From: Roseimicrobium sp. ORNL1
Lineage (GTDB): Bacteria; Verrucomicrobiota; Verrucomicrobiia; Verrucomicrobiales; Verrucomicrobiaceae
Assembly: GCF_011044495.1 (NCBI RefSeq)
Contig: NZ_CP049143.1
Span: forward strand, 3,038,001 to 3,102,000
Direction of reading: 5' to 3'
Length of the DNA: 64,000 nt
This document shows positions 29,995 through 32,219 of this stretch, one piece after another. Position numbers and translations under genes: made by a program. Under the pieces are notes generated by a model that was not told where the DNA came from, searched no databases, and worked only from the letters and a program-made list of their open reading frames with translations. Positions within the stretch are counted from its first letter, which is position 1, and each line of letters starts with the position of its first letter.

Positions 29995-30963
29995 CTATTC
30001 GAATTTCGGACGGCCACCGCCGATGGCGAGGCCGATGCGCTGTGCAGGGTCGGCATCCTCCGGCGCGGGACGCTGGGTGCCTTTGCCATCGCCGTTGCCA
30101 TCGAGTTGCGCATGCTCGGTGATGACGTAGTTGCCCTTCTTGTAGATGGCGAGCACTTGCTCATAGGTGGCGAGGAAGAGCTCGGTAAAGGTCAGCACGC
30201 CGTCTTGATTCGCATCGCTCGCATCGGCGGCCAGCGCCTGCGCCAGAGCACGGGGAAACTCGGTCTCGCTCTCCTTGTCCCCGGCAGAGCTGGCGGTGAT
30301 GACGTAGCGTCCCGGACCGGAGACACGCTTCATCAAGTCCGTGCTCACCGTGGTGGTGCCCAGCATCAGCAGCGGTACTTCTGGGGAGCATTCCTTCAGT
30401 GCGGCGCCGATTTCGCGCATGCTGACGTCTGGTCCTGGCAAATTGAACATGGCGCCGCCGGGGATGCCATTGGCGTGACCTTCGAGAATGATCCACGCCG
30501 GTCCCGCTCCAGCCGTCTTGGTATGCGCCACGACCTTCTCCAGTTCGGCGAGCAGTGCCTCCCGTGTGCAGGGGCCGTCGTAGCCGGCGCTCTTGGGCCC
30601 GTACAGCACCGTGATGTTCGCCGCAGGCACGGCGAAGCGTTGCGTCAGTGAGGAGCGAAGGGATTGCAGGTTCGCTTCATAGAACTCGTGATGCTCGTCA
30701 TCGCCTGGGGTGCCGTTGAAAATCCACACGCGGGGAGTGGTCGTGTTGATGGATGGCTTCACGGCTGATTCCTGACTGAAGCAGAGCCCATGTATGACGA
30801 GGAATAATACGCACAGACGAAGGCTCAGGCAAAGTAGCTTCGGCTTTAGCCGAATGAAGGCGTTCAATCTCGCGAGCGACTTGGCCGTCTTTCCTGTGCA
30901 GCGCCACACTGATTCGGCTGAAGCCGAAGCTACTTTCTTGATGATGTGCAAGTATATCATCAT
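29995..30963 (-). CDS. C13 (legumain/caspase-like) protein lacking the catalytic Cys, with EF-hand loop
   Basis: 322 aa from the ATG at 30963. The fold markers are PRVWIFNGTPGDDEHHEFYEANL, VLYGPKSAGYDGPCTREALLAEL, H163 in WIILEGHANG and YVITASSAGDKESETEFPRAL. In active C13/C14 peptidases a Cys follows the ITA strand, but here it is Ser (S225-S226), so this is probably a pseudo-peptidase. Two acidic loops follow: a canonical 12-residue EF-hand loop D250-E261 (DANQDGVLTFTE) and DGNGDGKGT. Similar proteins occur in MoxR/Bat operons. The hydrophobic leader (LSLRLCVLFLVIHGLCFS) has no ATG close before it because a REP doublet occupies that place; the start is therefore uncertain. Confidence 0.75.
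   Translation of the reverse strand: MMIYLHIIKKVASASAESVWRCTGKTAKSLARLNAFIRLKPKLLCLSLRLCVLFLVIHGLCFSQESAVKPSINTTTPRVWIFNGTPGDDEHHEFYEANLQSLRSSLTQRFAVPAANITVLYGPKSAGYDGPCTREALLAELEKVVAHTKTAGAGPAWIILEGHANGIPGGAMFNLPGPDVSMREIGAALKECSPEVPLLMLGTTTVSTDLMKRVSGPGRYVITASSAGDKESETEFPRALAQALAADASDANQDGVLTFTELFLATYEQVLAIYKKGNYVITEHAQLDGNGDGKGTQRPAPEDADPAQRIGLAIGGGRPKFE
30831..30936. repeat. REP doublet (REPIN) of GTAG type
   Basis: The first arm, 30831-30855, begins AAAGTAGC and contains the hairpin TTCGGCTTTAGCCGAA. The second, 30912-30936, is its reverse complement with one mismatch in 25 bases. The two enclose 56 bases. The GTAG tetranucleotide next to a hairpin, in inverted pairs, is the defining form of REP sequences mobilised by RAYT transposases. 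No RAYT gene is in the window. It overlaps the N-terminal codons of the C13-like gene. Confidence 0.8.
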
Positions 30964-30971
30964 ATATCAGT

Positions 30972-32219
30972 TCAGCGTGTGGCCGAATTCGTCGATTGGC
31001 GCTTCTTCCAGATGAGGATGCGGTTGTCGAACGTCTTCACGGCTATCTGGTCGGGTCCGAGAATCGTCACGTGATAACATCCCGTGGGCGCGGGAGCTGC
31101 GGTCCACATCTCTTCACCACTCGGCACGGCGAGCTGGCGCACGGGAGCATTCGCCCGGCCGGAGGTGAGGAAGGCGCTTTTGAAGTCAGGCGCGTAGGCG
31201 ACGGACGTGAGGTCGTCGATGGAGCGGCTCACCGTGATCGCCAGCGGCGCATCTGCCGCGCAGCGCACCACACCGCGCTCACGCATGGCGACCAGAGCCT
31301 CCGAGCCATCTTGATTCACGGCAATCCAGCGTGGGGTGACGGAGATTTTCGAAACCCACAGGACCTTCATGTCGGCGAGAGAGAGCATCGCCACCAGGTC
31401 ATCCTCCGGTCCGGGTACCTCGAAGGCCAGACCCACTGCTTTGCCATCAGCGGACACGGCCATGGATTGTGCGAGGATGTTGCGTGTGATTTCAGGGAAT
31501 ATTTCCTTCACGCTCATGCGGCGGGGCTCACCGGCGGGAGCGGGTTCGTGGAGCGTGAGGCCTGCATTGGTGAAGACCAGCAAACTCTGCGTGCCCGGCA
31601 CGAACTCCACCGCGACAGGTGGCGCCATCTGCTTCGCGTTGGGATTGTTGGGATTTATCTGCCGCATCTCCGGTGGCAGGGTGAGCAGTCGCTTGCCTGC
31701 GTCATCCTCTACCATCACCGCGCCGGATTGGTTGGAGAAGGCGATGCGCTTCCCATCCGGAGCCCATGCCAGCGCGCGTAGCGTGAGAGTGCCCGTGGTG
31801 GACTTCCCCAAGGTGCGCACCACGGCGAGATCCGTGGCATCCAGAATTTCGATGCCCGCGCTGTGCAGACTCGCCAGCAGAGTGCCTTTCACTGCGGTGC
31901 GTAAGGGCCCGCGGTCCAGACCTACGGCGGATACCGCCTGCTGGATCTCGATGGTCCACAAACCGTCGCGGAATCCTTTGAGAATCCGCTTCAGTCGCAG
32001 TCGTGCCTCTTCACTGGAATGCGACGCCATGGCGGCTCGCATCGCCGGTTCGGAGTCAATCATCTGCGAGAGCGCCTGCTGCGCCTCATCCCGCAGACGC
32101 ACCTTGGGAGCGGCGAGCTGATCGATGAGTTCCTGAAGGCGCGCACCTTCTGGCGCCGGCTCCTGGGCGGAGAGCGCCGTGGCAAAGCCAAGGCATAGGA
32201 TGGTGAGGAGCCTCTTCAT
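30972..32219 (-). CDS. Secreted protein with helical N-part and propeller-like C-part
   Basis: 415 aa from the ATG at 32219, which overlaps the previous stop (ATGA) and gives a proper signal peptide (MKRLLTILCLGFATALSAQE). Residues ~22-100 are helical and charged (LQELIDQLAAPKVRLRDEAQQALSQMI), resembling a HEAT-like repeat. The rest has WD40-like blades: TLRALAWAPDGKRIAFSNQSGAV, VAVEFVPGTQSLLVF, TSVAYAPDFKSAFLTSG and IAVKTFDNRILIWKK. It probably acts as a periplasmic scaffold in the MoxR/vWA complex; no catalytic motif is visible. Confidence 0.82.
   Translation of the reverse strand: MKRLLTILCLGFATALSAQEPAPEGARLQELIDQLAAPKVRLRDEAQQALSQMIDSEPAMRAAMASHSSEEARLRLKRILKGFRDGLWTIEIQQAVSAVGLDRGPLRTAVKGTLLASLHSAGIEILDATDLAVVRTLGKSTTGTLTLRALAWAPDGKRIAFSNQSGAVMVEDDAGKRLLTLPPEMRQINPNNPNAKQMAPPVAVEFVPGTQSLLVFTNAGLTLHEPAPAGEPRRMSVKEIFPEITRNILAQSMAVSADGKAVGLAFEVPGPEDDLVAMLSLADMKVLWVSKISVTPRWIAVNQDGSEALVAMRERGVVRCAADAPLAITVSRSIDDLTSVAYAPDFKSAFLTSGRANAPVRQLAVPSGEEMWTAAPAPTGCYHVTILGPDQIAVKTFDNRILIWKKRQSTNSATR

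Follow-up and report, generated by a model that had tools for sequence, protein, structure and literature searches.

A GTAG-type REP doublet in the start region of a minus-strand gene of Roseimicrobium sp. ORNL1, and the corresponding empty site in Verrucomicrobium

The DNA analysed here, referred to throughout as the window, is a stretch of 64,000 nucleotides from the genome of Roseimicrobium sp. ORNL1 (contig NZ_CP049143.1, positions 3,038,001 to 3,102,000), in which two co-directional genes meet at 30974-30963. Both genes and all features described below lie on the minus strand. The upstream gene (30972..32219), which is beta-propeller-like by one weak Pfam match, ends in a TGA stop codon at 30974-30972. 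The downstream gene is represented by an open reading frame of 322 amino acids in its longest form (29995..30963), at the head of which stands a tandem ATG ATG (30958..30963) that begins 8 nt past the upstream stop codon and is kept in the one other genome of the genus compared, hereafter the congener (G001). Hydropathy places a hydrophobic leader core at 30778..30837, approximately residues 43-62 of the longest reading, so that the two ATG codons stand about 42 residues ahead of it. The frame is uninterrupted across the whole of 29995-30963, as the initial annotation had reported, and it passes through a pair of inverted palindromic repeats.

The label C13-like, given to the downstream gene in the initial annotation, found no support in sequence searches, which returned neither a Pfam match at 1e-3 nor a PDB chain at E up to 1, and the structure model is poor (mean pLDDT 42.5). 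A GH motif is present in 17 aligned homologue sequences, and these lack a conserved cysteine at what we take to be the position expected for a C13 or caspase-like enzyme, where 2 of the 17 (L014 and L019) have one. If the protein is of C13/caspase-like fold, its sequence suggests that it may be inactive.

The repeats form a genuine REP doublet, composed of two arms of 25 nt each that are complementary at 24 of 25 positions (96%) and lie 56 nt apart. Arm 1, the first in gene orientation (30912..30936), and arm 2 (30831..30855) both read AAAGTAGCTTCGGCTTYAGCCGAAT from the outside inward, and each folds as a hairpin of its own with GTAG at its foot; arm 1 is identified both by the inverted repeat and by an exact match to the family. 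The element thereby occupies 30831-30936, rather than the 30831-30963 given in the initial annotation, of which 30937-30963 is flanking sequence containing the ATG codons. Between the arms lies the spacer (30856..30911), and in the RNA of the gene strand arm 1 is predicted to pair with arm 2 in a fold (z = -3.96) that was equalled by none of 200 shuffles.

Assignment to the GTAG type, also proposed in the initial annotation, agrees with the structure, number and location of the family's copies. GTAG stands at the foot of a palindrome of 20-40 bp, and a 24-nt pattern allowing up to 3 mismatches found 37 dispersed copies in the source genome and 69 in the congener, against a single hit for the reversed-pattern control in each. 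Many copies form inverted pairs, and the 56 nt between the arms here lie within the 20-100 bp usual for spacers of GTAG-type dimers; five doublets measured in all, including this one, span 66-106 nt. The family is mainly intergenic, 36 of the 37 copies, both arms at this site among them, being without coding signal according to a codon-usage gene caller, which is rough and was trained on 22 long open reading frames of the window; the one copy that overlaps a coding call does so with marginal signal. Across 38 sampled genomes 14 carry copies at up to 2 mismatches, several of them a GTGG-tagged variant, while none was found at that threshold in the sample's four genomes of Verrucomicrobium, one of which is only 76% complete.

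Copies may also be clustered. One 5.6-kb stretch of the source genome (2710330-2715941) holds seven, with two doublets among them, and a similar cluster is found in the congener (L109). Ten of the congener's 69 copies fall within about 250 bases of contig ends, three being the same variant (examples are C4:89, C9:89, C26:89, C6:184, C8:416096 and C21:79657), suggesting that these copies are embedded in a longer repeat, present in multiple copies, at which the assembly was interrupted.

REPINs are inverted pairs of REP sequences, and a REPtron is a RAYT gene flanked by its own REP. The initial annotation had proposed that the cognate RAYT gene be sought elsewhere in the genome, and the search did not locate one: among 17 Y1_Tnp and 17 NF047646 matches in the source genome (overlapping sets), scanned together with 1.5-kb flanks, none had a family copy closer than 1.5 kb when up to 4 mismatches were allowed, the nearest approach being about 1.9 kb (1767538-1767622 and 1769567). 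Of 12 matches in the congener, seven were scanned with their flanks and the other five compared by position, none of these five lying within 1.5 kb of a listed REP copy. With no RAYT gene flanked by this REP within 1.5 kb in the source genome, we make no claim of a REPtron. Several RAYT-type matches in that genome are instead flanked by different GTAG or GTGG hairpins, and RAYT-type genes near their own repeated hairpins of these kinds were observed at six loci (L097, L098, L100, L101, L102 and L104), L098 having the hairpin GTAGCCGACTTTCTCCGAAAGTCG on both sides, so that several distinct REP/RAYT systems seem to coexist there. A RAYT gene of another genus (L120, in genome G007) is flanked on either side by pairs of the GTGG variant; its closest matches in the source genome, L100 and L098, are about 40-42% identical and are accompanied by other hairpins. 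The present family may owe its dispersal to a RAYT that has since been lost. The stop-to-stop open frame of the L120 RAYT (1102-1812) itself runs back through a REP arm, encoding SAKAEAT, and may be another example of an open reading frame headed by a REP.

Comparison with relatives provides both occupied and empty versions of the site. A search within the family found the upstream gene in 5 of 68 genomes, with one further weak partial match, and all five share the order of upstream gene, downstream gene and a MoxR-type ATPase gene. The doublet occupies the same place in two of the five, the source genome and its congener, and is missing from the other three, all Verrucomicrobium. In these three the junction reads TGAcATG, placing the downstream ATG one base past the upstream stop and giving the protein a short N-terminus; between the shared anchors CGCTGA and GCCTGA they have 14 nt, compared with 141 nt in the source genome and 165 nt in the congener. 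Other homologues of the downstream gene, at approximately 30% identity, have neither neighbour gene in the stretches retrieved (15 loci, L014-L028).

These comparisons point to an insertion over the start region, as the initial annotation had supposed from a single genome; a long N-terminus lacking REP sequence, which would have argued the other way, was seen in none of the five genomes. The difference between occupied and empty sites follows directly from the comparison, and its direction we infer from the distribution of the family. Given two occupied genomes, three empty ones and the absence of the REP family from Verrucomicrobium, insertion in the source genus is a simpler history than loss in Verrucomicrobium, and the arrival of the doublet between the two co-directional genes most likely dates from the ancestor of that genus, the source genus.

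Five canonical codons stand in frame ahead of the leader core: ATG 30963, ATG 30960, TTG 30951, GTG 30909 and TTG 30867. The next, GTG 30762, lies beyond the core. The initial annotation recognised only one upstream ATG, which holds insofar as the tandem pair provides the sole in-frame ATGs before the leader; the TTG and GTG codons are in frame there as well. No ATG, GTG or TTG falls in frame between the element and the leader; hence, provided that translation begins at a canonical codon and the leader is retained, arm 2 at the least must be translated, and in the frame of the gene this arm encodes the basic residues RLKPK immediately ahead of the leader core. The suggestion that insertion forced either an N-terminal extension or a non-ATG start is on this basis supported in part: REP sequence would be coding under those two provisos, with ATG 30963/30960, GTG 30909 and TTG 30867 as candidate starts. 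GTG (30907..30909) is present in the congener too and overlaps a GAATCAG stretch found behind several of the family's REP arms, while TTG (30865..30867), located in the spacer, is absent from the congener, whose spacer has in-frame ATGs instead. Counted from its first ATG, the congener has in-frame ATGs at offsets 0, 3, 36, 96 and 99 and a GTG at 78 before its leader. By eye, no Shine-Dalgarno-like sequence precedes the ATG, and RNA folding and accessibility around the starts neither favoured the ATG nor separated the candidates.

Substitutions between the two congeners are distributed unevenly along this region. The junction that separates arm 1 from the upstream stop codon (30937..30971) differs at only 3 of 35 aligned positions, set against a third-position rate of 84/233 in the mature part of the protein (binomial P about 2e-4); the congener has in addition a 24-nt in-frame insertion between the upstream stop and arm 1. 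The spacer differs at 21 of 56 positions, with 9, 7 and 5 substitutions at the three codon positions and so without the third-position bias of the mature part (17, 10 and 84), so that it evolves as if non-coding and shows no constraint at the level of protein. This pattern would suit a linker that is translated without constraint as well as a spacer that is not translated at all. Codon usage over the 36-codon extension ranks at the 8th percentile among coding windows and at the 86th among shifted-frame windows, and over the spacer alone at the 22nd and 89th percentiles respectively; on 18-36 codons the measure is ambiguous, being too noisy to decide. The rough caller detects coding signal only from 65 nt beyond the element. 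The open frame itself is weak evidence because a second frame is also open across the doublet in the source genome.

The arms differ from those of the congener at 1 of 50 positions, far fewer than the spacer, which might be taken to mean that the protein needs the residues they encode. Ten orthologous doublet pairs were aligned. Four (L050, L190, L031 and L044) were excluded on visual inspection for want of a well-kept shared doublet, the pair at L031 being degraded in source genome and congener alike; of the six counted, L038 was dropped when its second arm exceeded the 5-mismatch limit, the pair at the present site is reported apart, and four were pooled. In these four, which the congener shares and over which the caller sees no coding signal, substitutions affect 16 of 184 arm positions and 30 of 125 spacer positions, although one of them, L035, shows little contrast (8/48 in arms, 7/32 in spacer). 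Arm conservation therefore looks like a property of the REP family that requires no protein-level explanation here, and a need for arm-encoded residues strikes us as most improbable.

The reading that we hold to be probable overall, if only moderately so, is an ancestral insertion followed by read-through from the tandem ATG at 30963/30960. On this reading, a doublet from a lineage-specific REP family of GTAG type would have inserted into a short two-gene junction in the ancestor of the two congeners, moving the leader of the downstream gene away from a start position that is still used in the sister genus; the gene would have survived because the frame through the element was open. Translation would most likely begin at the tandem ATG behind the upstream stop, perhaps coupled to that stop, and continue through the doublet into the old leader, the basic N-terminal side of which would now be supplied by arm 2. 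The tandem ATG is favoured because the junction is conserved; such a start also keeps close to the upstream stop, where that of Verrucomicrobium lies, and the additional 24 nt of the congener keep the frame. The doublet itself resembles the usual REP hairpins that separate genes within an operon, and no evidence for a gene-specific regulatory role was found. Against this reading, the element is present at this site in two genomes only.

Since the spacer evolves like non-coding DNA, a later, internal start that skips part of the element is possible. On this alternative the doublet would be effectively intergenic, with translation starting inside it at TTG 30867 or GTG 30909 (or at the spacer ATGs of the congener), so that arm 2 alone, or arm 2 together with the spacer, would be coding and the long open reading frame would be an artefact of annotation. 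We regard this as a serious contender of lesser probability than read-through. It accommodates the unconstrained spacer, the weak codon usage of the extension and a coding signal that the caller picks up only past the element, and TTG 30867 would yield a leader with a short front part; in the same vein, a 2013 survey of GTAG and CGTC repeats allows that many of the REPs located at the N-termini of ORFs could be extragenic, with translation perhaps starting downstream (PMC3733652). Yet no internal start appears to be kept for its own sake, TTG 30867 being absent from the congener and GTG 30909 overlapping sequence that follows several of the REP arms, and the conserved junction with its ATG pair would be left unexplained.

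Domestication of the doublet into the front of an exported protein is, in our estimation, unlikely; arm 2 would then serve as the basic region of the leader, and the strong REP-REP hairpin behind a stop-coupled ATG would set the balance of output between that ATG and the in-loop starts. The conserved junction could alternatively be a promoter, producing a separate transcript from near arm 1 that is translated from an internal start: the motif TGATATACT at 30959-30951, presumably comparable to an extended -10, is identical in both congeners. A consensus scan of 30700-31200, however, found no promoter-like pair there, the only one being further downstream at 30832-30804 (shuffles averaged 0.3), and we give this explanation little credence.

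The locus provides a natural example, for which occupied as well as empty relatives exist, of a mobile-looking palindrome that has probably landed on a start region while the gene survived. It also serves as a warning that long open reading frames called through REPs may be wrong, and offers a simple site for measuring translation starts where a hairpin replaces the old start; its usefulness derives mainly from the empty site available in the sister genus.

Among known systems, the doublet resembles REPINs and RAYT/REPtron systems in being an inverted REP pair, and a related GTGG family flanks the RAYT gene at L120 in another genus; it departs from RAYT/REPtron systems in that no copy of the family in the source genome lies within 1.5 kb of a RAYT or Y1_Tnp match. 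With Rickettsia palindromic elements (RPE) it would share an in-frame reading as part of a protein, N-termini included, but the repeat is a different one, RPE-4 and RPE-6 falling under the CGTC repeats, and N-terminal copies of RPE-1 are stated in the 2013 survey to be expressed in vivo (PMC3733652). In form the doublet is like the GTAG-tagged families of that survey, whose short palindromes have GTAG at their foot and whose head-to-head inverted dimers carry it on the outside (PMC3733652). The survey lists 24 GTAG families, includes GTAG REPs in Verrucomicrobia (Opitutus terrae), and describes these REPs as mostly intergenic, with most dimers having spacers of 20-100 bp (PMC3733652). It also records REPs inside open reading frames, a number of them at N-termini, and some copies of the GTAG families overlap ORF N-termini as the doublet does here; a REP at a gene start is, by that account, a phenomenon already described in other bacteria (PMC3733652).
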